From the NCBI RefSeq assembly GCF_016097555.1, contig NC_054704.1:76243081-76307080 (forward strand): a stretch of 64,000 nucleotides of DNA, in the 5' to 3' direction. The stretch comes from Gigantopelta aegis. Taxonomy: Eukaryota; Mollusca; Gastropoda; Neomphalida; Peltospiridae. Position numbers and translations under genes: made by a program. Below the pieces are notes generated by a model. The model saw nothing but the letters and a program-made list of their open reading frames with translations, was not told the DNA's origin and did no database searches. Each line of letters starts with the position of its first letter. Position 1 is the first letter of the stretch. This document shows positions 11,782 to 50,647 of the stretch, one piece after another.

Positions 11782-12453
11782 ATGGCGCAAAGACCACAGA
11801 TAGAAGACTACTATCTTGGGGCCCAGGAGAACTTTAGAGATTATGGGCTTTCGTGTGACAGCCATAAGAAAGAAGAATTTTCTGTACCCGAGAACGAATG
11901 CGAAATAAGGCTGAAATCTACGAAGGATGTCAAAATAACCACGCAGTTACTCGATTGCCGTGACGAATCGAAAAACCTTGCCGATTATGTTTTCACGCAG
12001 AGGAAGGGTGACACCATCTTCTTCATCATCAACTTCCCCGAATCTGGCTACTACAAGTTTCAGATATTTGCTCTTCTCGCATCCGACGAAAGTAAGTCCC
12101 TGCCTAACGTTTACAATTATTTGATCAAAGTGGATCGAGCGCTAAAAGCTGTACACGCCTTCCCCAAGCAGTATGCTCAGTGGAAAGACGGCTGCTACCT
12201 GTACGAACCGATCGTCCTCAACTCTTCATCTCGCCTCCACAAGGTCAACTTCAAGGTCCACATCCCCAAAGCGAAAGCGGCGGCGATCGTTGTCGACGGA
12301 AAGGACTGGCACCATTTGGAATTAAAGGGAGAGAATTTCGAGGGCTCGGTTGCGCTGGATCATTGCCGAAACAAGGGTGTCAAGGTCACGTTAAATGCTA
12401 ATTATGGAGGGGAGAGCACCACGTATCCCACGCTCCTGGAGTACAAGATTTAA
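11782..12453 (+). CDS. Array gene 1: one-module KY-type Ig-like repeat protein
   Basis: Encodes 223 aa, the minimal unit of the family. Domain A (about residues 10-117) carries the INFPESGYYKF strand (83-93) and LPNVYNYLI (107-115). Domain B (about 125-223) carries FPKQYAQW (127-134), GCYLYEP (137-143), WHHLELKGENFEG (176-188) and the terminal LLEYKI. The spacing and motifs resemble the C-terminal Ig-like repeats of kyphoscoliosis peptidase/hillarin proteins, but no transglutaminase-like Cys-His-Asp core is present, so I infer a non-enzymatic binding or scaffold role. No signal peptide or membrane segment is visible, which suggests a cytosolic protein. The ATG was chosen because the AATTTAAACGC-ATGGCG context is conserved in the paralogs; the frame is open for 39 bases upstream. 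An AATAAA lies at 12497-12502. It is the only array gene without the shared upstream regulatory block. The family assignment rests on motif memory, not a search. Confidence 0.8.
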   Translation: MAQRPQIEDYYLGAQENFRDYGLSCDSHKKEEFSVPENECEIRLKSTKDVKITTQLLDCRDESKNLADYVFTQRKGDTIFFIINFPESGYYKFQIFALLASDESKSLPNVYNYLIKVDRALKAVHAFPKQYAQWKDGCYLYEPIVLNSSSRLHKVNFKVHIPKAKAAAIVVDGKDWHHLELKGENFEGSVALDHCRNKGVKVTLNANYGGESTTYPTLLEYKI

Positions 12454-12720
12454 AGATCGACACTCTATTTTTTGTTTAAAACAAAAAAATGTTAAAAATA
12501 AAGGAACAAAAATCATCGCATAAACTTTTGCATACGTACTGTTGTACTGTTTCAGAACAATATCTTGTTACATTTTTTATTTACGTTAACTTTCTACTAA
12601 CATTATTTTATAATTATTGTGTTTATCAAGTATTCGGCTTCGCAAGGAATTTCTGAGACTCGCCATAATTGTAAAGGTAAGAAATATATATTTTATTATG
12701 TTATGCTAAGTGAAAGTTAA
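12454..12720 (+). other. 3' flank of array gene 1
   Basis: Family-conserved sequence: AATAAA (12497), CGCATAAAC, TTTACGTTAAC, CTAACATTATTTTATAATTA, AAGTATTCGGCTT, GAGACTCGCCAT and AAAGGTAAGAAA near 12675. The last resembles a splice donor. Confidence 0.6.
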
Positions 12721-13960
12721 TTTATGTCTATAATAGTAAATTGTTGATAATAACCATGAGATGAAAAAAATATACAGATTATTGAAATACAAGTTTAAAT
12801 GTAAAATACATTTGAACACTGGGGTTCATTACTTTCCCACTTCAATTTTTCCCCACTCTAGTTTTTAAAAATTTAAATGATTCAAAACATCGTCTTAATT
12901 CTGAATACAAAAGATTACAAGCGCGTGTGTAGGAAATTTTGCAGGGGTGTTTAGTGGCGAGCGTAGCTTTTAGTGTGGTGCGTGTGAATGTCATACTAGT
13001 GTAACGAGCACGCACGCACGCACTACTACTACTACCACCACCACCAATTCACCCTGCACACGCTCCTGCTTTATACATGTAGTTTGTTATTTTGTTTTCT
13101 TTTGGGAGTTTTAACCTAGATATTTTTAACAAAGTTATATCAGTGAATGCATTTTAAAATAAGTTGAAAAAACTATTAACATTTTGTCGTGAGCAGGGAA
13201 GTCAAGACGACACCCCCCCCCCCCCCCCCCGACCCCACTCTGGATCTGCGCCTCCTTGGATTGTAAAATATCGCAGTTTTATTTACGGTTATAAGACGTC
13301 GGCACGTTTTCAATTGTGTGACAGCTGAGTCATTCTTGTACTGTGCATTTGCATCAAGCTGAATTCACAATTGCAGGTGTGCAGTAATAAAGTACGCATA
13401 TTCAGGTATTAATTTTGTGTTTGCCGTGAGGTAGTGTATGTTACGCAGATATTGTGAAGAATAATATGTAGACTTATTAATATTATTTTTAGAAAGATAT
13501 GTCATATGTTCATTTTTATTAGTTGCCTTTAGATTTGGGTCAGTCTTCCCTTACCATGTCCTAAAATAGAGCTATAGGTAGTGGCACGGGCGTACGAAGG
13601 TGCCAAAAAGTGGGGGAGGGGGGGGGGGCGCACACACACACATGCACATAATTATATGTATATTTTTTTTATATAAATCATCACTGCTGCTACAAAGTGG
13701 GGAAGGCACATGCCTCCTGCCCCCTGCCCCATGCCCCTTCCCCCCGCTTCCTACGCCAGTGGTAGTGGAGTGGCAACTAATAAAAATGAACATATGACAT
13801 ATCTTTCTAAAAGAAAAATAAGTCAGACTTGTGAATATGTAATTTAAGTCACTGGGCCGCCGTTTAAATAGGACGTTGTTCAAGTTACGTGGTCCTAGGT
13901 GCTCATAAAATGATAGGACAAGGTAAGGGAAGACTTTGGCTCAAGTCTAAAGGCGACGCC
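12720..13960. other. Intergenic sequence after array gene 1
   Basis: Degenerate CACACGCG-type repeat traces (12910-13075, 13195-13260), poly-C at 13206 and poly-G at 13612. No coding sequence recognised. Confidence 0.5.
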
Positions 13961-14011
13961 TCACAATACGAGTGCCTCTCTCTCACACTCACTCTCTCTC
14001 ACGCAGTCTTT

Positions 14012-14078
<67 letters not shown>

Positions 14079-14098
14079 CCCCCCCCCCCCCCCCCCCT
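14012..14098. repeat. (CT)n followed by poly-C
   Basis: About 60 bases of (CT)n then about 22 C. Confidence 0.95.
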
Positions 14099-14237
14099 CC
14101 GCCATATCGATGCTATGAACATCGTGTTTGTACGTTTTCGTTTACATAGCCCAATGTACAAAACACTAATTGTGTTAATTGACTACCTGTTGTAACAATA
14201 TCCACTATATCAAATAATCAAGGTTCTGAATTAAACG

Positions 14238-14471
14238 ATTTCTCGCTCCAGTCAGTGCACCACGACTGGTGTAAGAAAGGCCGTGGTATGTGCTATCTTG
14301 TCTATGGGATGGTGCATATAAAAGATCCCTTGTTGCTAATCGAAAAGAGTAGCCGATGAAGTGGCGACAGCGGGTTTCCTCTCTCAATATGTGTGGTCCT
14401 TAACCATATATCCGATGCCATATAACCGTAAATAAAATGTGCTGAGTGCGTCGTTAAATAAAAAAATTCCT
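14238..14471 (+). repeat. SINE, 5'-truncated, tail T2
   Basis: Begins inside the body (TTCTCGCTCCAGTCAGTGCA) and ends GAGTGCGTCGTTAAATAAA. Confidence 0.88.
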
Positions 14472-14545
14472 TATTTCCTGAATGGAATGTTTAAGACGTG
14501 ATCCTACATAGCAAAGATTCGAACACTATACGTCTTTCCACTAAG

Positions 14546-14876: not shown

Positions 14877-15062
14877 ACTGTCTTTCCATCAACTATTTTA
14901 ACGTGTCTTCTTATGCTTCTTATACCATCCACACCCTCAATAATTCTAGTTTGGCTTGACATGAAAAGAAAAGGAAAATTGTTTTTGAAACAATAAACAA
15001 TCTACATAATATATAATACGGTCATAGTAGGAATGTCGTCTGCTCATGAAGTTTGAAATTAC

Positions 15063-16206: not shown

Positions 16207-16624
16207 TGCTCTAGGAGTAGCACTTTTCAAAATTAATATTTTCTCGATTCTTTCAACCCAAATTGCATAAAGACAAGGCGGTTTTCTCTTTCTTGTTGTA
16301 TATGCTATAACTGATACCAGTTTGGGTTAGGGGTGGACACGTGGCTTAGGCCTAACTTCCATATTGATTTCATTCTGAGAGTGCAGTATTTATTGTGCGT
16401 GCAGTGCGGATTCTGTATTTTCCACTACCATGCACAAAATGCAGATCTACTGAAAATCTACATTTAATTTCAGTGCCAGACAGTTCAATTTAATAATTAG
16501 CACATTAAAAAATAAAAATAATAATAAATAAAAAACTTAATTTATGTCCACGGTGTCACGGTCAGCGCAAAACTGACGTCGCCGACTGGCCAGTGACGTA
16601 AAGAATGGCAATTTCGTGCGGAAA

Positions 16625-16678
16625 TGACTGCGCATGTGCATGGCTGTCAAAAGATAATGTGAGGGGCGTGGTTTCCTG
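16625..16678 (+). promoter_or_regulatory. Shared upstream block of array gene 2
   Basis: TGACTGCGCATGTGC (NRF1-like), GATAATG (GATA) and GGGGCGTGG (KLF/Sp-like), with TGACGTAA (CRE/ATF-like) about 30 bases before. It ends 174 bases upstream of the ATG. Conserved in array genes 3-6, in the same order and spacing. No TATA box nearby. The motif-to-factor link is inference. Confidence 0.65.
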
Positions 16679-16851: not shown

Positions 16852-18207
16852 ATGGGGGATAAGAACCCAACGCCAAAGATAGAAGACCATTACCTTGGAC
16901 CCCTTCCGTATTTTGAATCATTAGGGCTTTCATGTGTCAGTCATAACCGACATAAATTTACTATACTAGAAAATGAAATTGAAATCAAGTTGAAAGCGAA
17001 GAAGCCAGTCAAGATTACCACGCAAATGATCAATGTCAGCGACGACGGGAAAAACGTGTCCGAATACATTTTCACGCAAAGGAAAGGTGAAATCATCTAC
17101 TTCATGATTAACTTCCCCGAATGTGGCATTTACAAGTTTGAGGTATATGCTCTGAGCGCAAACGACAAACACAAAGCAATGCATAATGTGTTTGGCTATC
17201 TGATCACAGTGGACCAGGCAACAAAAACTGTTCATGAGTTCCCCAAGCAGTACACTCAGTGGGACGACGGCTGCTTCTTGTACAAACCACTCGTCCTCGA
17301 CTCAACCTCTTATCTCGAAAATGTCGACTTCAAGGTCTACATCCCCAATGCGAAACAGGTGGCGGTCGTTGTTAACTGCAACGAATGGCACCCTTTGGAA
17401 TTAAAGGGAGAGAACTTCGAGGGCTCGGTTACTCTGAGAAGCACAGACGACAATGTGAGGATAAGTGCTAATTACGATGAGAGTACCACATATGCAACTC
17501 TCTTGGAGTACATAATTTCTGATGCGGAAAAGACGGATGACCCATGGCCACTGGTAGAAGGCAACTATCTTGGGTCCCTGGGAAACTTTACTAAATTCGG
17601 GTTTGTAACCGACAGTCATAAGACAGAGAAATTTTCTACATCCAAGAATGAATGCGAAATCAAGATGAAAACGAAGAAGGATGTCAGAACCAAAGCGCTG
17701 TTAATCGATTGCGCTGACCAATCGAAAGAAATGTCCCATTGCGTTTTCACGCAAAGGAAGGATGACACCATTTTCTACAACATCATCTTCCCCAAATCTG
17801 GCTTCTACAAGTTTGAAATATTTGCTCTGCCCGCATCCGATGAAAGTAAGTCTTTGATAAACGTTTTTAATTATTTGATCAAAGCTACCGGAGAGACAAA
17901 AGAGGGATATGGCTACCCCAAGCAGTACACCCAGTGGGAAGGCGGCTGCTACCTGTACGAACCACTCGTCCTCAACTCGTCCTCTGATCTCAAAAACGTC
18001 AGCTTCAAGGTTCATATCCCCAAAGCGAAAGCGGTGGCGATCATTGTTGACGGCAAAGAATGGCACTATTTGGAATTAAAGGGAGAGAACTTTGAGGGCA
18101 CGGTTGATCTGGAAGCCTGCCGACACAAAGGGGTCGGGGTCATGTTAGATGCTAACTTTGGAGAAGAGAGTGACACGTATCAAAGGCTCCTGGAGTACAA
18201 GATTTAA
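16852..18207 (+). CDS. Array gene 2: two-module KY-type Ig-like repeat protein
   Basis: Encodes 451 aa in one exon-like ORF. Module 1 (about residues 10-222) is the most diverged in the array: GCFLYKP replaces GCYLYEP and NVFGYLI replaces NVFNYLI. Module 2 (about 237-451) has the canonical FPKSGFYKF, NVFNYLI, YPKQYTQW, GCYLYEP and WHYLELKGENFEG. The linker (SDAEKTDDPWPLVEG) is shorter than in the other multi-module genes and has no Met at the fossil-start position. The start has the conserved AATTTAAACGCG-ATGG context, 174 bases below the shared upstream block (16625-16678). The 3' flank keeps the family sequence (GGCATAAACG, TTTACGTTAAC, ACTCGCCAT). No AATAAA is evident directly after the stop. 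No catalytic residues, signal peptide or membrane helix are seen. The KY-like assignment is by motif pattern. Confidence 0.8.
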   Translation: MGDKNPTPKIEDHYLGPLPYFESLGLSCVSHNRHKFTILENEIEIKLKAKKPVKITTQMINVSDDGKNVSEYIFTQRKGEIIYFMINFPECGIYKFEVYALSANDKHKAMHNVFGYLITVDQATKTVHEFPKQYTQWDDGCFLYKPLVLDSTSYLENVDFKVYIPNAKQVAVVVNCNEWHPLELKGENFEGSVTLRSTDDNVRISANYDESTTYATLLEYIISDAEKTDDPWPLVEGNYLGSLGNFTKFGFVTDSHKTEKFSTSKNECEIKMKTKKDVRTKALLIDCADQSKEMSHCVFTQRKDDTIFYNIIFPKSGFYKFEIFALPASDESKSLINVFNYLIKATGETKEGYGYPKQYTQWEGGCYLYEPLVLNSSSDLKNVSFKVHIPKAKAVAIIVDGKEWHYLELKGENFEGTVDLEACRHKGVGVMLDANFGEESDTYQRLLEYKI

Positions 18208-21641: not shown

Positions 21642-22022
21642 GACCGGCCTCGGTGGCGTCGTGGCAGGCCATCGGTCTACAGGCTGGTAGGTACTGGGTT
21701 CGGATCCCAGTCGAGGCATGGGATTTTTAATCCAGATACCGACTCCAAACCTGAGTGAGTGCTCCGCAAGGCTCAATGGGTAGGTGTAAACCACTTGCAC
21801 CGACCAGTGATCCATAACTGGTTCAACAAAGGCCATGGTTTGTGCTATCCTGCCTGTGGGAAGCGCAAATAAAAGATCCCTTGCTGCCAATCGGAAGAGT
21901 AGCCCATGTAATGGCGACAGCGGGTTTCCTCTCAAAATCTGTGTGGTCCTTAACCATATGTCTGACGCCATATAACCGTAAATAAAAATGTGTCGAGTGC
22001 GTTATAAAACATTTCTTTCTTT
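21642..22022 (+). repeat. SINE, head H2 / tail T2, with target duplication
   Basis: GACCGGCCTCGGTGGCGTCG head with B-box GGGTTCGGATCCC; the tail ends in TTTCTT. TGTTACAATTA flanks both ends (21631-21641, 22023-22033). Confidence 0.93.
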
Positions 22023-22361
22023 TGTTACAATTATTCCAGTTAATGTAGTAATATCTAGATATTTTAGCCCAGAAAATATGAATGTGCATATATTTCAACT
22101 ACTACAATGAACTATATGTATTATTAGTATGCATATTTATTTTATTTCATTTATATAAAGGGGTCGCTTCTTCTAACCAATTATTATAATATGAACTACC
22201 ATGAAGGGACTCTGATTTAAAGAAAAATACTTGACCTTTATCTACTAATTCATGTTCAACTATATGTCAAATATTATATAATCTATAAAATATACAATGA
22301 CTAGAAAAGTTACAATCCTGTGATGATGCCTTTAAAATATATAAACTAATTTCCCTCTATG

Positions 22362-22754
22362 ACCGGCCTCGGTGGCGTCGTGGTTAGGCCATCGGGCAAC
22401 AGGCTGGTAGGTACTGGGTTCCGATCCCAGTCAAGGCATGGGATTTTTAATCCAGATACTGACTCCAAACCCTGAGTGTGTGCTCCGCAAGGCTCAATGG
22501 GTAGGTGTAAACCACTTGCACCGACCAGTGATCCATAACTGGTTCAACAAAAGCCATGGTTTGTGCTATTCTGCCTGTGGAAAACGCAAATAAAAGATCG
22601 CTTGCTGCTAATCGAAAAGAGTAGCCCATGAAGTGGCGACAGCGGGTTTCCTCTCAAAATCTGTGTGGTCCTTAACCATATGTCTGACGCCATATAACCG
22701 TAAATAAAATGTGTTGAGTGCGTCGTTAAATAAAACATTCTTTCTTTCTTTTTG
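22362..22754 (+). repeat. SINE, head H2 / tail T2, with target duplication
   Basis: Same type as the copy 720 bases upstream. TCCCTCTATG flanks both ends (22352-22361, 22755-22764). Confidence 0.93.
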
Positions 22755-24513: not shown

Positions 24514-26465
24514 ATGGGTAAATCGAAAAACACTTCAGTTGATGTAAAATCGTGTATTAAGAACGTTTTCGATTATTTTGAAGATGAATATCAGCGCGGT
24601 AGACCTAGGTATGCAATCTAATTAAAATTAGCTCCACTATTACATGTGGATCTAAAAACAGCCAGTTGGAGCTCATGTCCACCAATCAAAACCTTACTTG
24701 CAGAATCCTGCCAGTGATTTAAAACTAACAACACTGCGTAGTCCCCAATGTCCAGGTAACATTTCGTCTGTAAATAATAATTTAAATATTGACCAATCAT
24801 ACTTCGCCTTTTATAACGTTATTTGGGAGCATACAAATTCTAAAAATATCGGGCGAGTCTATTTTAGTGGCCGCAGTACAGCGAACCATACCAATACGTA
24901 CGGGGTGGGTTATCAGTTTTCAATTTTACATTAAAAATTATTTATTTATTTATAAAATTAAAAAAAAAAAATCAGTCTTCAGTTTTACATTACAAATTAT
25001 TTATTTTATAAAATAAAACATGTTTTAAGGCATTCGTAATTCACACGAACCATGTCGTATACCCTCAGGATAATTCGGAATGTTTTCAAATTATTTTTAA
25101 ATCACTGGCAGGATTCTGCAAGTAAGGTTTTGATTGGTGGACATGAGCTCCAACTGGCTGTCTTTAGATCCACATGTAATAGTGGAGCTAATTTTAATTA
25201 GATTGCCTAGGTATGCTTCTTATCGAATTGTCGATCGAGTTGCCGCTGCACTTAAAGTTTCGGTTTCAACAGTAAAAAGAACTGTGAAAAATCTAAGCTC
25301 TACGAATCCAAGCACAGAAATCACTGTTAAAAAACCCAACCGAGAACTCATCGATTTATTTGATAACGATGTTATTAGACGACGAGTATACAGATTTTAT
25401 AGAGAGGGCGAATTACCTACATTACATAAGATTAACGTGGCTTTAAGGGAGGAATGTGGAATCAACATATCCATATCAACTTTACGAAGAACACTCCATG
25501 ACCTCGATTTTAAATACCAACATATGTCTACAACCGGAAAAGTGATTTTTGAGGACGCCAATATATCAGACAGGAGACTGTCCTATCTCCATGAAATATC
25601 CAGTTTACGAGAACAGGGGTATTTAATAGTGTATCAAGATGAGACCTGGGTGGATGTCAACCACACAACATCCCACCACTGGACAGATATCCACCCGGGC
25701 ATAAGTACCGCCAATCACCTGCCGAAATCAGACGCTGTTGATCGAGTTCCTAAACTCTGTTCGGTGACTGGGAAGGGAAAAAGACTTATTATTTGTCATG
25801 CTGGCTGTGATAAATATGGATTGATAGATGGCTGTGAATTGATCTTTGAGGCTAAAAAAACAGACGGAGACTATCATGGTGAGATGAATCATGAAAATTT
25901 CATCAAATGGTTTGAAGAACAACTTATGCCTTCTCTACCAGAACCTTCTGTTATCGTTATGGATAACGCAAGCTACCACAACAAATTAACTGAGAATACA
26001 CGATGTCCTGCACTAAACGCTAAAAAGGAAGAAATTCAGTCGTGGTTACGAAACAAAAATATACCTTTTGAGAGTAACATGACAAAGCCAGTTCTTTATG
26101 AACTTGTGAAAAGTAACAAATGTGCAAAGTAATTTGTTACTGATGATATTGCTGAACGCCATGGGCACTTGTGTCTAAGACTGCCGCCAAGACATTCTGA
26201 ACTCAATCCGATAGAACTGATCTGGAGTCAAGTCAAAGGGCACATAGCTCGTCATAATGATGGTAAAATGACCACGGTGCGGAGAGAACTTGCACATGCA
26301 TCGAACTCTGTCACACCTACACACTTCTCTGACGCAGTTAAACATGTAATAAAGATCGAAGAAGATTTTAGAAAACAAAATAGTTTTATAAGAAATAAAA
26401 TACCCCCTGTGATAGTCCCCGTTAACGAAGATAGTGATGAAGAAATGAGTTCGTCGACTGATTAA
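24514..26465 (+). pseudogene. IS630-Tc1-mariner transposase, DD82E (Sailor)-like, split by a MITE
   Basis: The N terminus begins at 24514 (MGKSKNTSVDVKSCIKNVF) and is cut after RGRPRY by the insertion at 24614-25205. Coding resumes at the second copy of the target duplication (PRYASYRIVDRVAAALKVS, a helix-turn-helix). The DDE catalytic domain shows YQDETW, VMDNASYH and LNPIELIW. I count 83 positions between the second Asp and the Glu, including a stop codon at 26130-26132; this wide gap is the hallmark of the DD82E/Sailor family. After the stop the same frame continues to 26465 (DEEMSSSTD). An apparent ORF starting at 25134 has an N terminus translated from MITE sequence and is not a real start. 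Two lesions, the MITE and the nonsense codon, make it non-autonomous. Terminal repeats of the element were not identified. Confidence 0.82.
24614..25205. mobile_element. Mutator-like MITE with 111-bp terminal inverted repeats
   Basis: 592 bp. The left arm 24614-24724 and right arm 25095-25205 are reverse complements over 111 bp with one mismatch, starting CAATCTAATTAAAATTAGC. The flanks carry a 10-bp target duplication, CCTAGGTATG (24604-24613 and 25206-25215). Long TIRs with a 9-11 bp duplication point to the Mutator/MULE superfamily (or a foldback element). It has no coding capacity. It interrupts the Sailor-like transposase, so it is younger than that element. Confidence 0.88.
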
Positions 26466-28700: not shown

Positions 28701-28980
28701 CAGATGACATCTGTGTAGTAAGGCCTTAAATTCATATTATTCATTGTACGTGCAAAGCGGGTTCTGTATTTCTGTACTATCGTCAGCACAAAGTGCAGAT
28801 CGAACGAAATTTTAAATTCAAATTCTGGGACAGGTGGTTCAGTTTAATCATTTAGCAGTCATATTCCATACACATTAAAGGGGGGTGGGGGGTTACTGAA
28901 TCCATGTCTGACGTCGGGATCAGCGAACAACTGACTAAGTCGACTGTAGAGTGACGTAATGAAGGACTATTGCGTGAATA

Positions 28981-29034
28981 TGACTGCGCATGTGCGTGGA
29001 TGTCAATGGATAATGCGAGGGGCGTGGTTTCTTG
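28981..29034 (+). promoter_or_regulatory. Shared upstream block of array gene 3
   Basis: TGACTGCGCATGTGCG, GATAATG and GGGGCGTGG in the family order, with TGACGTAA just upstream near 28952. Ends 199 bases before the ATG. Homology with gene 2 extends several hundred bases further upstream (GCGGATTCTGTATTT-like sequence near 28760). Confidence 0.65.
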
Positions 29035-29232: not shown

Positions 29233-30654
29233 ATGGCGCTTAGCTCGTGGGTTGCGCTAGAAAACGAAAGGACTGCGTTGCCTTATAACAGATCTCTACG
29301 GATAGACGACTTCGATCTTGGAGCCCTTGAAAACTTTAGTAAATTCGGGCTTTCTTGTTACAGCCATATGCATGAGAAATTTTGTATACCCGAAAATGAA
29401 TGCATAATCAAGTTGAAAACGACGGAGGATGTAAGAATTACTACACAGTTAACCAATTACAATGATCGACTGAAAAACCTGTCCGAATATGTTTTCATGC
29501 AGAGGGATGATGACATCATCTCCTTCATTATTAACTTCCCGGCTTCTGGCTATTACAAGTTTGAGATATATGCTCTGCCGGCAGACGCCGAACATAAGAC
29601 CCTGCCAAACGTTTTTAATTATTTCATCAAAGTGGACCATGCGACAACAGCTGCACACGTCTACCCCAAGCAATATGCTCATTGGCAAGGCGGCTGCTAT
29701 CTGTACGAACCACTCGTCCTCGACTCGACCTCTGATCTTCAAAATGCCAATTTCAAGGTCCACATCCCCAATGCTACAAAGGCGGCGATCGTTGTTGAAC
29801 ATAATGGAAAGGTTTGGCACCATTTGCAGTTAAAGGGACGGGACTTTGGGGGCTCGGTTGCTCTGGATCATTATGGAAATGAAGACGTCAAGGTGATGTT
29901 AAATGCTAATTATGGGGAGAGTGACACATATGCAACGCTCCTGGAGTACACGATTTTTAATACATCACCAATAGAAGACGAAAAGAAAGTTGTGGCGTAT
30001 GACTCATGGCCACGGATAGAAGGCCACTATATTGGAGCCCTTGAAAACTTTAGTAAATTCGGGCTTTCGTGTGACAGCCATCAGCAAGAGCTATTTTCTG
30101 TACCCGACAATGAATGCGAAATCAGTCTGAAAACGATGGAGGATGTTAAAGTTACCGTGCAGTTAATCGATTGCAATGACCAATCGAAAAACCTGTCCGA
30201 TTACGTTTTCACACAGAGGAAGGGTGACACCATCTCCTTTATCATCAACTTTCCCGAACCTGGCTTCTTCCAGTTTGAAATATTTGCTCTGCCCGCATCC
30301 GATGAAGAGAAGACGCTGCTTAACGTTTTTAATTATTTGATCAAAGTGGACCAGGCGACAAAAGCAGCAAATATCTTCCCCAAGCAGTATGCTCAGTGGA
30401 AAGGTTGCTGCTACCTGTACGAACCACTCGTCCTCGACTCATCCTCTAATCTCCAAAACGTCAATTTCAAGGTCAACATCCCCAAAGCTAAAAAGGCGGC
30501 GATCGTTGTTGACGGCACGAATTGGCGCCATTTAGAATTAAGGGAAGAGAACTTCGAGGGCTCTGTTGATCTGGAAAAGGGTGTCACGGTCACGTTAAAT
30601 GCTAATTACGGGGTCACTGACGCTTATGCACCTCTACTGGAGTACACGATTTAA
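29233..30654 (+). CDS. Array gene 3: two-module KY-type Ig-like repeat protein
   Basis: Encodes 473 aa. I chose the ATG at 29233 (context AATTTAAACGTG-ATGGCG) over the GTG one codon upstream. There is an extra N-terminal segment of about 20 residues before module 1 (20-241). Module 2 spans about 265-473. Both modules show GALENFSKFGLSC, NFP..G(Y/F)(Y/F)(K/Q)FEI, LPNVFNYFI or LLNVFNYLI, (Y/F)PKQYA.W and a CYLYEPLVLDS core (GCYLYEP in module 1, CCYLYEP in module 2). The linker has VVAYDSW, which aligns with the MA..SW start region of the paralogs, so an old start codon appears to have been absorbed. The shared upstream block lies at 28981-29034, and AATAAA at 30770-30775. The nearest upstream array gene is 11 kb away because transposons and SINEs fill the gap. 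Likely a cytosolic structural or binding protein; its actual function is unknown. Confidence 0.82.
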   Translation: MALSSWVALENERTALPYNRSLRIDDFDLGALENFSKFGLSCYSHMHEKFCIPENECIIKLKTTEDVRITTQLTNYNDRLKNLSEYVFMQRDDDIISFIINFPASGYYKFEIYALPADAEHKTLPNVFNYFIKVDHATTAAHVYPKQYAHWQGGCYLYEPLVLDSTSDLQNANFKVHIPNATKAAIVVEHNGKVWHHLQLKGRDFGGSVALDHYGNEDVKVMLNANYGESDTYATLLEYTIFNTSPIEDEKKVVAYDSWPRIEGHYIGALENFSKFGLSCDSHQQELFSVPDNECEISLKTMEDVKVTVQLIDCNDQSKNLSDYVFTQRKGDTISFIINFPEPGFFQFEIFALPASDEEKTLLNVFNYLIKVDQATKAANIFPKQYAQWKGCCYLYEPLVLDSSSNLQNVNFKVNIPKAKKAAIVVDGTNWRHLELREENFEGSVDLEKGVTVTLNANYGVTDAYAPLLEYTI

Positions 30655-31599: not shown

Positions 31600-33130
31600 G
31601 ATATTTTCGACATTATTTTCTGAATGTCAATTATATTAGCTAGACCATAATGTCACGCATGGTATTGTTCCATTTTGACGAAAGTGGGTCTAAGCAACCC
31701 ATAAATGAATTAAAATCCACTGTCATTGACACTGTCGACTAGTTCTAATGGCGAAAACATGCTTACATTTGCACGTAAATTAGGGCGAAAGCGAAAGGTC
31801 TGCTAAGTGCCCATAATTTGCTTTTTCACAAAGCGCTTCATTTGCACGCTTTGCATGTGTATTCCATGTTCCCAATGCTGAATTTCCGTATAATTGGAGC
31901 TTGTGTTCGTGTACGGTGCATACTCCAAATTCGACAATGGTACAACGTCAACTGACTATCGAAGATCGAGGAAGGGCTATTGCTTGGCTTCAGGATGGCA
32001 ATACGCAAAGAAATGTTGCTCTGAGACTTGGTGTCAGTCAGAGTGTCGTTGGCCGACTGTGGCAACGGTACCAAGCAACGAATTCTGTTCGAAATCGTCC
32101 ACGTTCGGGAAGACCCCGAAGCACTACAAATAGAGAGGACCGCTACATCACCAATATGGCTCTACTTTAACGCACAACCACTGCACGCCGATTACGTGAC
32201 AATCTGCGGACTGCGACTGGAACTCGAGTGTCTGATCAAACCATACGCAATCGTCTGAGAGCCAATAATCTACGCTGCCGTCGCCAGGCTGTTCGACCAC
32301 CACTCCTACCACGTCACAGAACGGCCAGACGTCACTGGTGCACGCTTCATCTGCGGTGGCAACGTGTTCAGTGGGGTCGAGTGATGTCCAGGTTTAGTCT
32401 CCAGTTCAACGACGGTCGGGTTCGTGTCTACAGACGTCCTGGGGAGCGCTTCGCTGACGTTAACGTTAGACAACGTCACCGGTTCGGTGGTGGCAGCGTC
32501 ATGGTGTGGGGCGGCATCTCTATCCACTACAGGACCCCCCTCTATGTGGTGGATGGCAATCTGAATGGAATCCGCTATCTGAATGAGATTATCCGGCCGT
32601 TGGTTCTCCCAGGCCTTCAGCAGATTGGCGTCGGGGCAGTTCTGCAGGATGACAATGCCAGACCCCACCGCGCAGGGTGGTAACGGACTTTCTCAGACAA
32701 CAAGGTATCGCCAGGATGGATTGGCCAGCATATTCGCTTGACTTGGCCCCAATAGAGAACGCCTGGGACGAATTAGGCAGGAGAGTTCGGGATAACCATA
32801 CCCCTCCGGCCAACCTTCATGATCTGGGTCAACTTCTTATGGCAGAGTGGCAGGCCATTCCCCAAGAGTTCTTCAGACGTCTGATCAACAGCATGAGACA
32901 ACGATGTATCGAGTGTATTCGCGCCAGGGGTGGATTCACACACTATTAAACGAATGTTCTAATGTGTAAAATCCATGTTTGACAACCTTCAACTTTGACA
33001 GCATGTCATGTGACTTTCTTGTATACAGTGACGTTTATTTGTGTTTTTTTGTAAATATGGAACAATAAATTAAATTTTTGGTGTAGTTTACATCATCAAT
33101 CTAATACACTCATATTCTTTTGAGTAGTAT
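31600..33130 (+). mobile_element. Tc1-like element body around the 31937 transposase
   Basis: The right part after the stop is typical Tc1 noncoding sequence running to about 33130 (ATTCTTTTGAGTAGTATAT). On the left only weak similarity to the inverse of that end is seen near 31600-31660, so the left boundary is a guess and the element may be 5'-truncated. Confidence 0.45.
31937..32949 (+). pseudogene. Tc1-like transposase relic lacking the first catalytic motif
   Basis: The start (MVQRQLTIEDRGRAIAWLQD) leads into paired helix-turn-helix DNA-binding regions, with GVSQSVVGRLWQRY and the RPRSGRPR linker. In-frame TAA at about 32168 precedes RTTTARRLRDNL. The catalytic domain retains GGGSVMVWGGIS, VDGNLNGIRY, LQDDNARPHRA (second Asp) and, after a one-base insertion near 32681, DWPAYSLDLAPIENAWDEL (Glu; 34 residues between, so DD34E). 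The LFSDE-type motif carrying the first Asp is deleted near 32383 (GRVMSRFSLQ is read instead). It ends ARGGFTHY, stop at 32947-32949. Dead on three counts. Lies in the spacer between array genes 3 and 4. Confidence 0.88.
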
Positions 33131-35069: not shown

Positions 35070-35366
35070 ATTTTAAAGAAGATTCATTTTAAATATTTTG
35101 AGTTCAATTGTTGGGTTACATTCCAAAATGTGTCCCCAAAACTGTATGATTTTGTGTGCATATTTGACAATGTTCACACCCATACAAACCACACCCAAGC
35201 GGGACATACTCCTCCGGAAAACGTAAATTTGATCAAGCGGGGGAGGGGGGGGGGGGGGGGTGTTGTCAAGCACATTTAAATAATAATAATAATAAATTCT
35301 TCTAAATATCTATGAAGTTTTAGTCAGCACACAACTGACGTAAAGTGAGCCGATTTCGTGTTGTAG

Positions 35367-35420
35367 TGACTGCGCATGTGCGTCGCTGTCAAGCGATAAT
35401 GCAAGGGGCGTGGTTTCCTG
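35367..35420 (+). promoter_or_regulatory. Shared upstream block of array gene 4
   Basis: TGACTGCGCATGTGCG, GCGATAATG and GGGGCGTGGTTTCCTG; TGACGTAAAG lies at about 35335. Ends 221 bases before the ATG. Confidence 0.65.
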
Positions 35421-35640: not shown

Positions 35641-37020
35641 ATGGCGCGTAGATCATGGGAACACGTAGATAGCCACTATATTGGAGCCCTTGAAAACTTT
35701 AGTAAATTCGGGCTTTCGTGTGACAGCCATAAGCATGAGAAATTTTTTTTAATGAGGAATCAATGTCAAATCAGATTAAAAGCAACGAAAAATGTCAAAA
35801 TTGCTGCCAAATTAATCGGTTACCGCGATGAATCGAAACACCTGTCCGAATATGTTTTCACGCACAGGAAGGGTGACACCATTTTTTTCATGATCAACTT
35901 CCCTGAAACTGACTTGTACAAGTTTGAGATATTTGCTCTGCCGGCATCCTCCGAAAGTAAGACACTGGTTAACGTTTTTAATTATTTGATCACAGTGGAG
36001 CATGCGACAAAAACTGCACACGTCTTCCCCAAGCAGAATGCTGACTGGCAAGGCCACTGCTACTTGTACGAACCACTCTTCCTCGACTCAACCTGTGATC
36101 TCAAAAACGTCTACTTCAAGGTCCACATCCCCAACGCGAAAAAGGCGGCGATCGTTGTTGAACATCATGGCAAGGACTGGAACCATTTGGAATTAAAGGG
36201 AAAGGACTTTGAGGGCTCGGTTGCTCTTGATCATTACGGAAACAAAGACGTTACGGTGATGTTAGATGCTAATTATGAGGAGAATGACACATATGTAACG
36301 CTTCTGGAGTACACGCTTTTCAATAAAGACGAAAGGAACGCGTTGGCACATGAGTCATGGTCACGGATAGAAGGCCACTATCTTGGAGCCCTTGAAAACT
36401 TCAGTAAATTCGGACTTTCATGTGACAACCATAAGCAAGAGAGATTTTCTGTACCCGATAATAAATGCGAAATCAGGATAAAAACGACGGAGGATGTCAA
36501 AATTGAGACGCATTTAATAGATTGCCGTGACCAATCGAAAAAGCTTACCAATTACGTTTTCTTTCAAAGGAAGGGTGGCATCATCTTCTTTATGATCAAT
36601 TTTCCTTCTTCTGGCATCTTTCAGTTTGAAATATTTGCTTTGCCCGCATCCAGTGAAGATAAGACACTGCTTAACGTTTTTAATTATTTGATCAGAGTGG
36701 ACCAGGCGACAAATGCTGCACATGCCTTCCCAAAGCAGTATAATCTTTGGAAAGACAGCGGCTGCTACTTGTACAAACCACTCACCCTCGACTCATCCTC
36801 TGATCTCAGAAGCGTCATCTTCAAGGTTCACGTTCCTAATGCTACGAAGGCGGCGATCATTGTTGACGGCAATATAATGCAGCATTTAGAATTTAGAGGG
36901 GAGAACTTCGAGGGCTTGCTTCTTCTGGATTCCCACATAAAAAAAAGTGGAAAGATCTTGTTAAGTGCTAATTACGGGGACAGTAGCAAATATACAACAC
37001 TATTGGAGTACACGATATAA
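35641..37020 (+). CDS. Array gene 4: two-module KY-type Ig-like repeat protein
   Basis: Encodes 459 aa from the conserved AACGCG-ATGGCG start. The frame stays open 36 bases upstream but only with a TTG start, so the ATG is preferred. Module 1 (about residues 8-226) has NFPETDLYKFEI, LVNVFNYLI, FPKQNADW and HCYLYEP. Module 2 (about 245-459) has NFPSSGIFQFEI, LLNVFNYLI and GCYLYKP, and ends in LLEYTI. The inter-module linker (KDERNALAHESW) aligns with the N terminus of the family. It is the closest relative of array gene 5: same length, most residues the same, and matching 5' and 3' flanks. The shared upstream block is at 35367-35420. AATAAA at 37035-37040 begins only 14 bases after the stop, implying a very short 3' UTR if it is used. 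No enzyme motif, signal peptide or membrane segment. Confidence 0.82.
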   Translation: MARRSWEHVDSHYIGALENFSKFGLSCDSHKHEKFFLMRNQCQIRLKATKNVKIAAKLIGYRDESKHLSEYVFTHRKGDTIFFMINFPETDLYKFEIFALPASSESKTLVNVFNYLITVEHATKTAHVFPKQNADWQGHCYLYEPLFLDSTCDLKNVYFKVHIPNAKKAAIVVEHHGKDWNHLELKGKDFEGSVALDHYGNKDVTVMLDANYEENDTYVTLLEYTLFNKDERNALAHESWSRIEGHYLGALENFSKFGLSCDNHKQERFSVPDNKCEIRIKTTEDVKIETHLIDCRDQSKKLTNYVFFQRKGGIIFFMINFPSSGIFQFEIFALPASSEDKTLLNVFNYLIRVDQATNAAHAFPKQYNLWKDSGCYLYKPLTLDSSSDLRSVIFKVHVPNATKAAIIVDGNIMQHLEFRGENFEGLLLLDSHIKKSGKILLSANYGDSSKYTTLLEYTI

Positions 37021-38408: not shown

Positions 38409-39124
38409 GGGGCAGGACGTAGTCCAGTGATGAAGCATTCACTTGATGCGCGGTCGGTCTGGGATCGATCCCCGTCGGTGGGTCCATTGGGATATTTCTT
38501 GCTCCAGCTAGTGCACCAAAGTAAAGTTTGTTTTATTTAACGACGCCGCTAGAGCGCATTGATTTTTTATCTTATCATCGGCTATTGGACGTCAAAGATA
38601 TGGTCATTCTGACGCTGTTTTTTAGAGGAAACCCGCTGTCGCCACATAGGCTACTCTTTTACGACAGGCAGCAAGGGATCTTTTATTTGCGCTTCCCACA
38701 GGCAGGATAGCACAAACCATGGCCTTTGCTGAACCAGTTATGGATCACTGGTCGGTGCAAGTGGTTTACACCTATCCATTAAGCCTTGCGAAGCACTCAC
38801 TCAGGGTTTGGAGTCGGTATCTGGATTAAAAATCCCATGCCTCGACTGGGATCCGAACCCAGTACCTACCAGCCTGTAGACCGATGGCCTGCCACGACGC
38901 CACCGAGGCCGGTAGCTAGTGCACCACGACTGGAACATCAAAGGCCGTTGTATGTGTTGTCCTGTCTATGGGATGGTGCATATAAAAGATCCCTTGCTAA
39001 TAATGGAAAACTAGCGGGTTTCCTCTCTAAGACTTTATATCCAAATTACCAAATGTTTGACATCCAATAGCCCATGATTAATAAATCAATGTGCTCTAGT
39101 GGTGTCGTTAAACAAAACAAACTT
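38409..39124 (+). repeat. SINE (H1/T1) split by a nested SINE
   Basis: 5' part 38409-38518, 3' part 38914-39124. Outer flanks TATAGTCAGCCA (38397-38408) and TATAGTCGGCTA (39125-39136) match the site of the SINE at 33559, so it was present before the spacer duplicated. Confidence 0.92.
38519..38913 (-). repeat. SINE, head H2 / tail T3, nested
   Basis: Inserted into the SINE at 38409-39124 with the 13-bp duplication AGCTAGTGCACCA (38506-38518, 38914-38926). Confidence 0.95.
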
Positions 39125-41025: not shown

Positions 41026-41401
41026 ATCTTTAAAACATTGCTTGAAATTTTTCTCGTTGAATTCTGAATTGTCAGATATTAATATCAGTGTCTCTGGGGC
41101 ATGTTTTTTTAACTACTAGTATGTCACAATGTGGCAGTATTGTTGTAGGCGCGTGTGCAGGATTTTTAGTAGTTGACGGGGGGTAGGTGGTGGGTCTAGA
41201 CTGGCGTCGCTGAGAAACGTTTTAATTGGGGTCGAGATATGCTCCTCCGGAAAATGCAATGAAAAAACGCAAATGTGATTAAGCAGGAGGTGTTGTCAAG
41301 CACATTTAAATAAAAACAAAAAGAAATTCTTCTAAATGTCTTAGAACTTTCAGTCAGCAAACAACAATACTGACGTAAAGTGGCGCGATTTCGCGTTGTA
41401 G

Positions 41402-41455
41402 AGACTGCGCATGTGCGTCGTTGTCAAGCGATAATGCGAGGGGCGTGGTTTCCTG
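41402..41455 (+). promoter_or_regulatory. Shared upstream block of array gene 5
   Basis: AGACTGCGCATGTGCG, GCGATAATG and GGGGCGTGGTTTCCTG, with CTGACGTAAAG about 30 bases upstream. Closest to the ATG of all copies (83 bases) because part of the leader is deleted. Confidence 0.65.
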
Positions 41456-41537: not shown

Positions 41538-42917
41538 ATGGCGAGTAGCTCATGGCAACACGTAGAAGTCCACAATATTGGAGCCCTTGAAAACTTTAGT
41601 AAATTCGGGTTTTCGTGTGACAGCCATAAGCATGAGAAATTTTCTTTAATTAAGAATGAATGCCAAATCAGGCTGAAAGCAACGAAGAATGTCAAAATTG
41701 CTGCAAAATTAATCGGTTACCGTGACGAATCGAAACAACTGTCCAAATATGTTTTCACACAGAGGAAGGATGACACCATTTTCTTCATGATCAACTTCCC
41801 TGAAACTGACCTATACAAGTTAGAGATATTTGCTCTGCCGGCATCCTCCGAAAATAAGACACTGGTTAACGTTTTTAATTATTTGATCAAAGTTGAGCAT
41901 GCGACAAAAACTGCACACGTCTTTCCCAAGCAGTATGCTGATTGGCAAGGCGACTGCTACTTGTACGAACCACTCGTCCTCGACTCAACCTGTAATCTCA
42001 AAAAGGTCCACTTCAAGGTAAACATTCCCAACGCGAAAAAGGCGGCGATCGTTGTTGAACACCAGGGCAAGGACTGGCACCATTTGGAATTAAAGGGAAA
42101 GGACTTTGAGGGTTCGGTTGCTCTTGATCATTACGGAAGCAAAGACGTGAAGGTGATGTTAGATGCTAATTATGAGGAGAATGACACATATGTAACGCTT
42201 CTGGAGTATACGCTTTTCAATAAAGGCGAAAGGAACGAGTTGGCGCATGAGTCATGGCCACGGATAGAAGGCCACTATATTGGAGCTCTTGAAAACTTCA
42301 GTAAATTCGGACTTTCATGTGACAGCCATAAGCAAGAGAGATTTTCTGTACCCGATAATAAATGTGAAATCAGGATAAAAACAACGGAGGATGTCAAAAT
42401 TGGGACGCATTTAATCGATTGCCGTGACCAATCGAAAAAGCTTTCCAATTACGTTTTATTTCAGAGGAAAGGTGACACCATTTTCTTTAAGATCAACTTT
42501 CCTGCATCTGGCTTCTTCCAGTTTGAAATATTTGCTTTGCCCGCATCCAATGAAGATAAGACACTGCTTAATGTTTTTAATTATTTGATCAAAGTGGACC
42601 AGGCGACAAATCCTGCACATGCCTTCCCCAAACAGTACAGTCTTTGGAACGAAAGCGGCTGCTACCTGTACGAACCACTCATCCTCAACGCATCCTCTGA
42701 CCTCAGAAGCGTCATCTTCAAGGTTCACATTCCTAATGCTACGAAGGCGGCGGTCATTGTTGACGGCAATATAATGCACCATTTAGAATTAAGAGGGGAG
42801 AACTTCGAGGGCTTGCTTCATCTGGATTCCCACAGAAACGAAGATGGAAAGATCTCGTTAAGTGCTAATTATGGGGACAGTAGCAAATATTCAACACTAC
42901 TGGAGTACAGGATATAA
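41538..42917 (+). CDS. Array gene 5: two-module KY-type Ig-like repeat protein
   Basis: Encodes 459 aa from the conserved AACGCG-ATGGCG start; in-frame sequence upstream is open but has no ATG. Module 1 is about residues 8-226 and module 2 about 245-459, with the canonical NFP, VFNYLIKV, FPKQY, GCYLYEP and HHLEL motifs. It is a recent duplicate of array gene 4, with which it shares length, linker (GERNELAHESW) and flanks. The 5' leader is shortened: the shared block (41402-41455) ends 83 bases before the ATG, against 174-228 in the other genes, because the AACTCCGG-containing segment is missing. AATAAA lies at 42932-42937, directly after the stop. The 3' flank keeps the family sequence as far as an AAGGTAAGAAAT motif near 43100. 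Its function is not determined by sequence; KY-like non-enzymatic repeat protein is the best call. Confidence 0.82.
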   Translation: MASSSWQHVEVHNIGALENFSKFGFSCDSHKHEKFSLIKNECQIRLKATKNVKIAAKLIGYRDESKQLSKYVFTQRKDDTIFFMINFPETDLYKLEIFALPASSENKTLVNVFNYLIKVEHATKTAHVFPKQYADWQGDCYLYEPLVLDSTCNLKKVHFKVNIPNAKKAAIVVEHQGKDWHHLELKGKDFEGSVALDHYGSKDVKVMLDANYEENDTYVTLLEYTLFNKGERNELAHESWPRIEGHYIGALENFSKFGLSCDSHKQERFSVPDNKCEIRIKTTEDVKIGTHLIDCRDQSKKLSNYVLFQRKGDTIFFKINFPASGFFQFEIFALPASNEDKTLLNVFNYLIKVDQATNPAHAFPKQYSLWNESGCYLYEPLILNASSDLRSVIFKVHIPNATKAAVIVDGNIMHHLELRGENFEGLLHLDSHRNEDGKISLSANYGDSSKYSTLLEYRI

Positions 42918-44836: not shown

Positions 44837-45400
44837 GAAGTTTGTTTTGTTTAGTGACACCACCAGAGCACATTGATTAATTAATCATCGATTATTGGAT
44901 GTCAAACATTTCGTAATTAAAGTTAAAAGTAAAGTTTGTTTTATTTAACGACCCCACTAGAGCACATTGATTTTTTATCTTATCATCGACTATTGGACGT
45001 CAAACATATGGTCATTCTGACACTGTTTTTAGAGGAAACCCGCTGTCGCCACATAGGCTACTCTTTTACGACAAGCAGCAAGGGATCTTTTATTTGGGCT
45101 TCCCACAGGCAGGATAGCACAAACCATGACCTTTGTTGAACCAGTTATGGATCACTGGTCGGTGCAAGTGGTTTACACCTACCCATTGAGCCTTACGGAA
45201 CACTCACTCAGGGTTTGGAGTCGGTATATGGATTAAAAATCCCATGCCTCGACTGGGATCCGAACCCAATACCTACCAGCCTGTAGACCGATGGCCTAAC
45301 CACGACGCCACCAAGGCCGGTGATTTCGTAATTATGACTCGAAGTCATCAGATGAAAGCCGCTACATTTTTCCTAATGCAGCAAGGGATTCAACTTACTC
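44837..45400 (-). repeat. SINE (T1) split by a nested SINE
   Basis: Tail 44837-44919 and body 45323-45400, separated by the insertion at 44920-45322. Confidence 0.88.
44920..45322 (-). repeat. SINE, head H2 / tail T3, nested
   Basis: Flanked by the 12-bp duplication ATTTCGTAATTA (44908-44919, 45323-45334) inside the older SINE. Confidence 0.94.
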
Positions 45401-47065: not shown

Positions 47066-47516
47066 ACAGTTACCTTTGGCACACTGCCTGAACTTTCTCG
47101 TTGGATTCCGAACTGACAGTTATTGATATTAGTGTCGCTAGGTCATTTACAGGGGGTGTACATTGTGGCGAGAGAAGTTTATAGGGGGTTGAGACATGCT
47201 CCCTCGAAAAATGTATTGGGGAAAAAAAAGCAAATTTGATTGAGAAGGGGTTCAATCCCCGAACATTTCCCACCCATCCCCCTGCACACGCGTCTGTGTT
47301 GTCCAGGTCATTTTTGTATTATGCATTTTCATATGCGTGTTTTTCTCTTTCATATTGGAAGTGCTATAATTGATAGCTGTTTGGAAAATATTTATAGTGA
47401 AATATAACAGACTAGTCAACACATATTTAAAACAAAAAATATATATACTAAATCAATGTCTGCAAAGTCATTGTCAGCACACAACTCACGTAAAGAGGGG
47501 CGATTTCGCGCGACTA

Positions 47517-47570
47517 TGACTGCGCATGTGCGTGGCTGTCAAGAGATAATGTGAAGGGCGTGGTTTCCTG
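47517..47570 (+). promoter_or_regulatory. Shared upstream block of array gene 6
   Basis: TGACTGCGCATGTGCG, GAGATAATG and AGGGCGTGGTTTCCTG. The CRE-like element is changed (CACGTAAAG near 47487). Ends 228 bases before the ATG. Confidence 0.62.
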
Positions 47571-47797
47571 ACAGATGTGACGTGTGAGTCATGGTTCAAA
47601 GTAGTCAACTCACAAAAACTATGATGGAACTAGACCTACTGGTATTACATATCTGAAGACCTCAGTAGATGACAGACTTCACAAAGGCTAAGAAATGCCA
47701 ACTGTTTGAATATTCAATCGTCCAACTCCGGTAAATTTAGTGCTGTAGCCTATTTATTGTTTTGACGCTTCAGATTGCATTGACAATTTTAAACACG

Positions 47798-50647
47798 ATG
47801 GCGCATAGCTCACGGCTACCGATAGAAGACCTTGATCTTGGAGCCCTTGAAAACTTTAGTGAATTCGGGCTTTCGTGTGACAGTCATAAGCATCATAAAT
47901 TTTCTATACCCGATAATGAATGCGAAATCAGACTGAAAGCGACTAAGGATGTCAAAATTAGCGCGCAATTAATAAGTTGCAGTGACGAATCGAAAAAACT
48001 GTCCGATTACGTTTTCACGCAGAGGAAGGGTAACACCATCTCCTTCGTCATCAGCTTCCCCGAATCTGGCTATTACAAGTTTGAGATATATGCTTTGCCC
48101 TCAAACTACGAAAATAAGATCCTGCCTAACGTTTTTAATTATTTGATCATAGTGGACCGGGCGACAAAAGTTGCACATGTCTTCCCCAAACAGTACGCTC
48201 AGTGGCAAGGCGTCTGCTACTTGTACGAACCACTCTTCCTCGACTCGTCCTCTGGTCTCCAAAACATCTACTTCAAGGTGCACATCCCCAATGCTGCAAA
48301 GGCGGCGATCGTTGTTGACGGCAAGGACTGGCATCATTTGCAATTAACGGGAGAGAACTTCGAGAGTACGATTGCTCTGGGTCACAGTAGAAACAAAAAC
48401 TTAAAGCTTACGCTAAATGCTAATTACGTGGCGGGTGGTACAAATTATACAACGCTACTAGAGTACACTATTGTGAATACGCAAAGGTCGTTGTCACTGG
48501 TAGACGATGAAAGGAACGCGATGGCTTCTGGCTCATGGCCAGGGACAGAAGCAAATTATCTAGGAGCCCATGAAAACTTTAGTAGATTCGGGCTGTCGAC
48601 TGACAGTCATAAGAAAAATAAATTTTCTGTACCCGATAATGAATGCGAAATCAGGCTGAAAACGACGAATGATGTCAAAATTATTTCGAAATTAATCGAT
48701 TGCAGTAACCAATCGAAAAACCTGTCCGATTACGTTTTTAAGCAGAAGAAAGGTGATACCATTTTCTTCTTAATCAACTTCCCCAAGTCTGGCTATTACA
48801 AGTTTGAGATATTTGCTCTGCCCTCAAACCACGAAAAGGAGACCCTGCCTAACGTTTTTAATTATATGATTAAAGTGAACCGGGCATCAAAATCTGCACA
48901 TGTCTTCCCCAAGCAGTATACTCAGTTTGAAGACGGAGGCTGTTACTTGTACGAACCGATCGTCCTTAGTTCGTCCTCTGGTCTCCGAAATGTCAACTTC
49001 AAGGTCCACATCCCCAATGCTACAAAGGCGGCGATCGTTGTCGACGGCATGGACTGGCGTCATTTGGAATTAAGGGGAGAGAACTTCGAGGGCGCGTTTG
49101 CTCTAGATCGCTATGGAAACAAAGACGTCAAGTTGGCGTTAAATGCTAATTACGGGACGAGTAACACACATTATACAACGCTCCTGGAGTACACGATTGT
49201 TAATACGCAAAGCTCGTGGTCACCGGTAGAAAAAGAAACGAATGTGATGGCTTCTGGCTCATGGCCTCCGGTAGAAGATCACTATCTTGGAGCCCTTGAA
49301 AACTTTAGTAGATTCGGGCTTTCGACTGACAGTCCTAAGCAACATAAATTTTCTGTACCCGATAATGAATGCGAAATCAGGCTGAAATCGACGAAGGATG
49401 TCAAAATTATTACGAATTTAATCGATTGCAGTGACCAATCGAAAAAGCTGTCCGATTACGTTTTCACGCAGAAGAAGGGCAACACCATTTTCTTCATGAT
49501 CAGCTTCCCCAAATCTGGCTATTACAAGTTTGAGATATTTGCCCTGCCCTCAAACTACGAAAATGAGACCCTGCCTAACGTTTTTAATTATATGATCAAA
49601 GTGAACCGGGCATCAAAATCTGCACATGTCTTCCCCAAGAAGTATACTCAGTTTGAAGACGGAGGCTGCTACTTGTACGAACCAATCGTCCTTAGTTCGT
49701 CCTCTGGTCTCCAAAATGTCAACTTCAAGATCCACATCCCCAATGCTACAAAGGCGGCGATCGTTGTCGATGGCAAGGACTGGCGTCATTTGGAATTAAG
49801 GGGAGAGAACTTTGAGGGCGCGGTTGCTCTGGATCGCTATGGAAACAAAGACGTCACGGTGACGTTAAATGCTACTTACGGGACGAGTAACACACGTTAT
49901 ACAACGCTCTTGGAGTACACAATTGTTAATACGCAAAGCTCGTGGTCACCGGTAGAAGAAGAAAAGAACGTGATGGCTTCTGGCTCATGGCCTCGGGTAG
50001 AAGACCACTATCTTGGAGCCCTTGAAAACTTTAGTAGATTCGGGCTCTCGACTGACAGTCATAAGCAACAGAAATTTTCTATACCCGATAATGAATGCGA
50101 AATCAGGTTGAAATCGACGAAGGATGTCAAAATTACCATGCAATTAATCGATTGCCATGATCAATCGAAAAACCTGTCCGATTACGTTTTCACGCAGAGG
50201 AAAGATAACACCATCTTCTTCATCATTAACTTCCCCAGATCAGGCTACTTCCAGTTCGAAATATATGCTCTTCCCGCATCAGACACCAGCAAGACCCTTC
50301 TTAACGTTTTTAATTATTTGATTAAAGTGGACCGGGCGACAAAAGCTGCACGCGCCTTCCCCAAGCTGTTTGCTGAGTGGAAAAATGACTGCTACCTGTA
50401 CGAACCGATCGTCCTCGACTCGTCCTGTCCCCTTCATAACGTCAACTTCAAGGTCCACATTCCCCATGCGAGAGAGGCAGTGGTCGTTGTTGATGGCATT
50501 CACTGGAACCATTTACAGTTAAGGGGAGATAACTTTGAGGGCACGGTTGCTCTAGATCGCTTCAGAAACAAGGGTGTCAAGGTCACGTTGAATGCCAATT
50601 ACGGGGCGTCTAACACATACGTAACGTTACTGGAGTACAGGATTTAA
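47798..50647 (+). CDS. Array gene 6: four-module KY-type Ig-like repeat protein
   Basis: Encodes 949 aa, the largest member and the last in the array. Four modules span about residues 7-225, 249-467, 491-709 and 733-949. Each has the A domain (LGA.ENFS.FGLS, NFP or SFP strand, PNVFNY(L/M)I) and the B domain (FPK.Y, CYLYEP, HIPNA..AAIVVDG, HLEL.GENFE, LLEY.I). Modules 2 and 3 are almost the same, sharing unusual features (FEDGGCYLYEPIVLSSSSGL, NYMIKVNRASKSAHV), so they reflect a recent internal duplication. All three linkers keep an in-frame ATG (48521, 49247, 49973) in a context like the true starts. The start is the conserved ACACG-ATGGCG; the shared upstream block lies at 47517-47570. No clear AATAAA is seen after the stop. 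No catalytic core, signal peptide or membrane helix. Confidence 0.83.
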   Translation: MAHSSRLPIEDLDLGALENFSEFGLSCDSHKHHKFSIPDNECEIRLKATKDVKISAQLISCSDESKKLSDYVFTQRKGNTISFVISFPESGYYKFEIYALPSNYENKILPNVFNYLIIVDRATKVAHVFPKQYAQWQGVCYLYEPLFLDSSSGLQNIYFKVHIPNAAKAAIVVDGKDWHHLQLTGENFESTIALGHSRNKNLKLTLNANYVAGGTNYTTLLEYTIVNTQRSLSLVDDERNAMASGSWPGTEANYLGAHENFSRFGLSTDSHKKNKFSVPDNECEIRLKTTNDVKIISKLIDCSNQSKNLSDYVFKQKKGDTIFFLINFPKSGYYKFEIFALPSNHEKETLPNVFNYMIKVNRASKSAHVFPKQYTQFEDGGCYLYEPIVLSSSSGLRNVNFKVHIPNATKAAIVVDGMDWRHLELRGENFEGAFALDRYGNKDVKLALNANYGTSNTHYTTLLEYTIVNTQSSWSPVEKETNVMASGSWPPVEDHYLGALENFSRFGLSTDSPKQHKFSVPDNECEIRLKSTKDVKIITNLIDCSDQSKKLSDYVFTQKKGNTIFFMISFPKSGYYKFEIFALPSNYENETLPNVFNYMIKVNRASKSAHVFPKKYTQFEDGGCYLYEPIVLSSSSGLQNVNFKIHIPNATKAAIVVDGKDWRHLELRGENFEGAVALDRYGNKDVTVTLNATYGTSNTRYTTLLEYTIVNTQSSWSPVEEEKNVMASGSWPRVEDHYLGALENFSRFGLSTDSHKQQKFSIPDNECEIRLKSTKDVKITMQLIDCHDQSKNLSDYVFTQRKDNTIFFIINFPRSGYFQFEIYALPASDTSKTLLNVFNYLIKVDRATKAARAFPKLFAEWKNDCYLYEPIVLDSSCPLHNVNFKVHIPHAREAVVVVDGIHWNHLQLRGDNFEGTVALDRFRNKGVKVTLNANYGASNTYVTLLEYRI

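Follow-up and report, generated by a model that had tools for sequence, protein, structure and literature searches.

The closest described relatives of the genes considered here are the KY and hillarin proteins, in which Ig-like_KY domains accompany a transglutaminase-like (TG) part. Reported partners of KY and hillarin are filamin (filamin C) and septin, and hillarin is said to act on cytokinesis via septins (PMC3081291). KY deficiency has been linked to human myopathy, and the role of KY is described as unsettled (PMC6078408). KY-annotated genes of molluscs have been reported in haemocytes, tentacle, larvae, and skin mucus, and hillarin in chiton radular teeth; as far as the available text of these reports goes, TG content is unstated. 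A further relative by fold is FAP246, a protein of the C1b arm of the Chlamydomonas ciliary central pair (PDB 7n6g, 7sqc), which is reported to hold leucine-rich repeats (LRRs), a transglutaminase core, and EF-hands (PMC7999657). Here, we describe a tandem array of six genes from the gastropod Gigantopelta aegis that encode the end unit of KY proteins only, one to four times per gene. The window analysed is a stretch of 64,000 nucleotides on contig NC_054704.1 (C6 76,243,081-76,307,080; genome total 1.149 Gb).

A tandem array of KY tail modules

Six neighbouring, one-exon-like open reading frames lie on the + strand of the window and carry 1, 2, 2, 2, 2, and 4 modules, 13 in total. Gene 1 (11782..12453, from ATG to stop as for all genes; 223 amino acids, aa) encodes one module (11791-12450) that matches the Ig-like_KY profile PF23265 at E 2.4e-22. 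Two modules each are found by the same profile in gene 2 (16852..18207, 451 aa; modules 16870-17517 and 17545-18204), gene 3 (29233..30654, 473 aa; 29293-29955 and 30007-30651), gene 4 (35641..37020, 459 aa; 35656-36318 and 36358-37017), and gene 5 (41538..42917, 459 aa; 41553-42215 and 42255-42914). Gene 6 (47798..50647, 949 aa) has four, at 47813-48472, 48536-49198, 49262-49924, and 49988-50644. The start context is ATGG in all six genes and ATGGCG in five of them. Modules are 215-221 residues long and share 50-88% protein identity across 78 pairs; within gene 6, the closest pair is modules 2 and 3 (86%). Genes 4 and 5 are close tandem duplicates, 91.6% identical at the DNA level in an alignment of 1569 columns. 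When the window is searched with a nucleotide profile of the modules, all 13 are recovered and no further, degraded copy appears; a protein profile run on the window and its 10 kb flanks adds to these a single match, at E 0.75.

The original prediction, made from the letters alone, had described six same-strand genes of KY type, with module counts of 1-2-2-2-2-4 and a double-domain module of about 220 residues. Every number that we checked agrees, and an independent Pfam search of the genome places Ig-like_KY above its curated cut-off in all 13 modules and all six proteins, which bears out both the counts and the family. Profile, alignment, and structure models show that each module consists of an Ig-like_KY domain followed by an early-set (E-set), CBM48-like beta-sandwich, so that the double-domain description holds as an Ig and E-set pair. 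Genome-wide there are at least 56 Ig-like_KY matches, a lower bound, 13 of them in the window. Ig-like_KY genes also cluster locally, by twos or threes, at C2:38.33-38.40 Mb, C6:2.64-2.82 Mb, C15:45.29-45.31 Mb, C6:91.45-91.52 Mb, and C3:54.91-54.96 Mb.

The Ig-like_KY domain is common to the array and the TG-type KY/hillarin genes of the same genome. Two of the latter, L009 and L017, also carry an E-set-like domain after their last Ig-like_KY domain, and alignment and models place the same domain in the array modules. The module is not a new arrangement: the same pair ends L009 and L017 and has a match in FAP246. These two proteins also have a TG tail and an earlier Ig-like_KY copy, whereas the array holds the end unit only, one to four times. 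The array is a known KY tail unit, here detached, multiplied, and under mild selection, and we file it as KY-tail-derived rather than as full KY/hillarin.

Searches beyond the genome returned little. NCBIfam profiles match only far below their cut-offs, and scanning with an alignment of 16 module rows found 15 pattern matches in prokaryote genomes and 46 in viral contigs, none of them a relative. The gene 3 protein matches no PDB chain in a single-sequence search up to E 5. The same search with the single-module gene L013 gave one match at E 0.62, which is chance level, and module profile searches yielded only isoamylase-domain and branching-enzyme entries at E 0.15-0.68; both were rejected.

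The Ig and E-set pair fold is shared with FAP246 and LRGUK. The modules might on this ground act in motile cilia as FAP246 does, making the array an axonemal or sperm-flagellum protein family, which we regard as unlikely. Sequence identity between FAP246 and the module is 13% only, the gene 3 protein finds no PDB chain by sequence, and a shared fold says nothing of function. Moreover, no other listed chain fits both domains well, so FAP246 could top the list regardless of function. Neither the LRRs nor the TG part of FAP246 is present in the array proteins; for LRRs, a feature of FAP246 and LRGUK, a Pfam search of all six proteins gave no family at E <= 1.

The second domain has a beta-sandwich similar to the CBM48 or E-set domains of sugar enzymes. 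It might then bind glycogen or another glucan, and the proteins would gather glycogen or glycogen enzymes. The CBM_48 profile scores weakly on single modules (10 of 22 match at E <= 0.1, best 0.0025), and whole proteins pass in genes 2, 3, and 6 by summing copies, while genes 1, 4, and 5 stay below. We consider glucan binding improbable.

Selection on the modules

The modules are diverged and intact. Nei-Gojobori ratios of nonsynonymous to synonymous change (dN/dS) have a median of 0.57 over the 78 module pairs (range 0.30-0.89), at a median pairwise dS of 0.44. A codon model gives an omega of 0.666 and departs from omega = 1 by 2 delta lnL (log likelihood) of 24.5; fixing omega at 1 loses at least 12.2 log units at each of five kappa values. 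Selection, suspected earlier from intact but diverged frames, is confirmed and is purifying, but the constraint is mild.

A diversifying, immune-type family, for instance of haemocytes, in which variation among modules is the point, would fit the varying module copy number between genes and the reports of KY-annotated genes in mollusc haemocytes (PMC12064177, PMC11250055). Those reports, in the text available, leave the TG content of the genes unstated. Along the modules, pN/pS never exceeds 1 in a scan of 20-codon stretches rather than single sites, its maximum being 0.79, and no signal sequence is evident at the N-termini of the six proteins, as judged by eye. We think this explanation has little chance of being right.

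An array that is decaying or neutral, kept open by recent duplication, would agree with an omega of up to 0.67 and with the closeness of genes 4 and 5. Against it stand the rejection of omega = 1, the median dS, the pN/pS ceiling in every 20-codon stretch, and the 13 intact modules, with no decayed copy found in the window. When one module was evolved neutrally in 2000 simulated draws, the share without a stop was 24% at 0.05 substitutions per site and 1.35% at 0.2; chance therefore does not account for 13 intact modules. Decay is very unlikely.

Missing transglutaminase-like part, upstream block, and origin

The exon with the Ig domains begins with a TG tail in the majority of the genome's TG-type KY genes. 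Pfam Transglut_core (PF01841) has one match genome-wide, on contig C2, and none in the window; it misses evident KY TG parts of the genome and was therefore not relied on by itself to show absence. Instead, we built a TG-tail profile from 16 KY genes of the same genome (L009, L011, L014-L019, L021, L022, L024, L026, and L028-L031). Applied to all open stretches of at least 15 residues in the window and its 10 kb flanks, this profile, which covers the tail of the domain and the KY type only, found no KY-type TG tail (best E 0.78). As a positive control, it recovered four of four held-out KY loci (L010, L012, L025, and L027), two of which, L025 and L027, are closely related to sequences used for training; matches to the 16 training rows follow from how the profile was made and do not count. 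In the tails themselves, the catalytic histidine, which we take to lie two positions before the conserved Trp, is present in 2 of 16 (L028 and L031), and L025, outside that set, reads NHAW. Judged from this position, most TG-type KY paralogues look like pseudoenzymes. Ahead of the KY gene at C15:45.28 Mb, bases 1 to ~3400 of L018 read as N, perhaps because of a gap.

Between the ATG of gene 2 and an in-frame TGA upstream of it there is no AG, which rules out the in-frame joining of an upstream coding exon via a GT-AG intron. For genes 1 and 3-6, the sequence alone would allow an upstream coding exon, yet the profile result supports the view that no KY-type TG tail is nearby to splice. The absence of a TG-like domain, as first proposed, therefore stands under a profile with a positive control. 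The single-exon-like structure proposed with it is supported but not proven: gene 2 bars an in-frame upstream coding exon and genes 2-6 each have their own promoter-like block, while a non-coding 5' exon is possible. Poly(A) motifs occur within 400 bases past the stop in four of the six genes.

That block, of 54 bases on the + strand, lies 134-279 bases 5' of the ATG in genes 2-6: at 16624..16677 (gene 2, ~225 bases before the ATG), 28980..29033 (gene 3, ~250), 35366..35419 (gene 4, ~272), 41401..41454 (gene 5, ~134), and 47516..47569 (gene 6, ~279). Its identity is 85-94% in 10 gene pairs. At 4-fold sites in the first two modules, the corresponding figure is 68-81% for nine of the 10 (genes 4 and 5: block 94.4%, 4-fold sites 92.6%), and the excess of the block is biased upward because it was chosen for its conservation. 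It was found neither upstream of gene 1 nor at the solo loci described below. A 101-base genome-wide search, which skips very common words, returned five matches, the five block copies themselves. This favours a shared promoter element over a transposon, so the block would be promoter-like in genes 2-6, which we infer to be co-expressed.

That these are ordinary full KY genes with overlooked TG exons is highly improbable: KY genes are exon-split, Transglut_core misses most TG parts here, and our own profile spans the domain tail only, but that profile is negative across the window and its flanks, gene 2 is closed to an in-frame upstream coding exon spliced by a GT-AG intron, and each of genes 2-6 has a separate upstream block.

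Three solo genes, L013 (C10), L020 (C3), and L023 (C8), suggest where the array came from. A genome search with L013 gave 25 matches at E <= 0.01, among them L020 and L023, all 13 modules of the array, and the ends of TG-type genes, the last at no more than 28% identity. Like the array genes, the solo genes have an Ig-like_KY and E-set module without a TG tail, none being found by the TG-tail profile in 6.5-8 kb around each; unlike them, they are dispersed and single, and they are 31-47% identical to array modules. Because they have the same TG-free layout, the array itself probably did not lose the enzyme-like part.

In a tree, the array modules group together (support 90/98), and the module of gene 1 splits off first within the array, on a short end branch of 0.085. 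Genes 4 and 5 pair module by module, and modules 2 and 3 of gene 6 pair with each other. The array and the solo genes join at 85/91 only, and several inner array forks are unsettled. The simplest history would lead from a stand-alone TG-free gene to local copying; modules would have doubled internally ahead of the split between genes 3-5, and gene 6 would have grown later.

Other elements surround the array. Tc1/mariner transposase remnants lie at window positions 6942-7745 (HTH_Tnp_Tc3_2 above cut-off), 25134-26462 (helix-turn-helix and DDE_3 below cut-off only; stops or frame changes), and 31817-32946 (HTH_Tnp_Tc3_2 above cut-off; stops or frame changes). A dispersed repeat of ~400 bases occurs in both orientations at 9798-10198, 21642-22022, 22361-22747, 38518-38914, 44925-45321, 55140-55535, and 60585-60974; copies around the array are roughly 84-96% identical. 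Elsewhere in the genome, the molluscan haemocyanin domain has five matches on two small contigs, C2783 and C5121 (L035-L038), one with an internal TGA. L035 aligns with 14 distinct PDB haemocyanin sequences, among them KLH1, keyhole limpet haemocyanin. These matches mark a mollusc as the probable source of the DNA, at a strength limited by the small size of both contigs.

Proposed function and significance

We propose that this tandem family of stand-alone KY-tail genes encodes cytosolic, non-catalytic adaptors whose valence is set by module number, a proposal that we hold to be evenly balanced between right and wrong. A cytosolic adaptor would be the most likely role because the enzyme-like part is absent and a signal sequence is not evident. 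The number of modules (1, 2, or 4) would then determine how many partner sites are held together per molecule. By analogy with KY, hillarin, and FAP246, these partners may be cytoskeletal proteins.

Several results weigh against this proposal or the evidence behind it. A core structural protein with an omega of 0.67 would be weakly constrained, and the excess of the upstream block over 4-fold sites carries the bias given above. The TG-tail profile misses L034, the region of the genome's sole Transglut_core match, and no poly(A) motif follows within 400 bases of the stop of genes 2 and 6.

More tentatively, and with a better chance of being wrong than right, an animal lineage may have detached the two-domain KY tail from its enzyme-like part and turned it into co-regulated non-catalytic adaptors; FAP246, the ciliary protein of an alga, contains a unit of this fold too. 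The valence of the adaptors (1, 2, 4) would have been tuned by module duplication, in parallel to TG-type paralogues that mostly do without the catalytic histidine. Among titles and abstract openings, we found neither tandem KY-tail genes without a TG part nor a link between FAP246 and KY described, which is not proof of absence from print.

If the proposal is true, a TG-free family of graded copy number would mean that the KY tail can work on its own, apart from the enzyme-like part. The small array proteins would offer a handle for finding the partner of the KY tail. The fold match to FAP246 links a protein family of muscle and neurons with a ciliary protein of known position.
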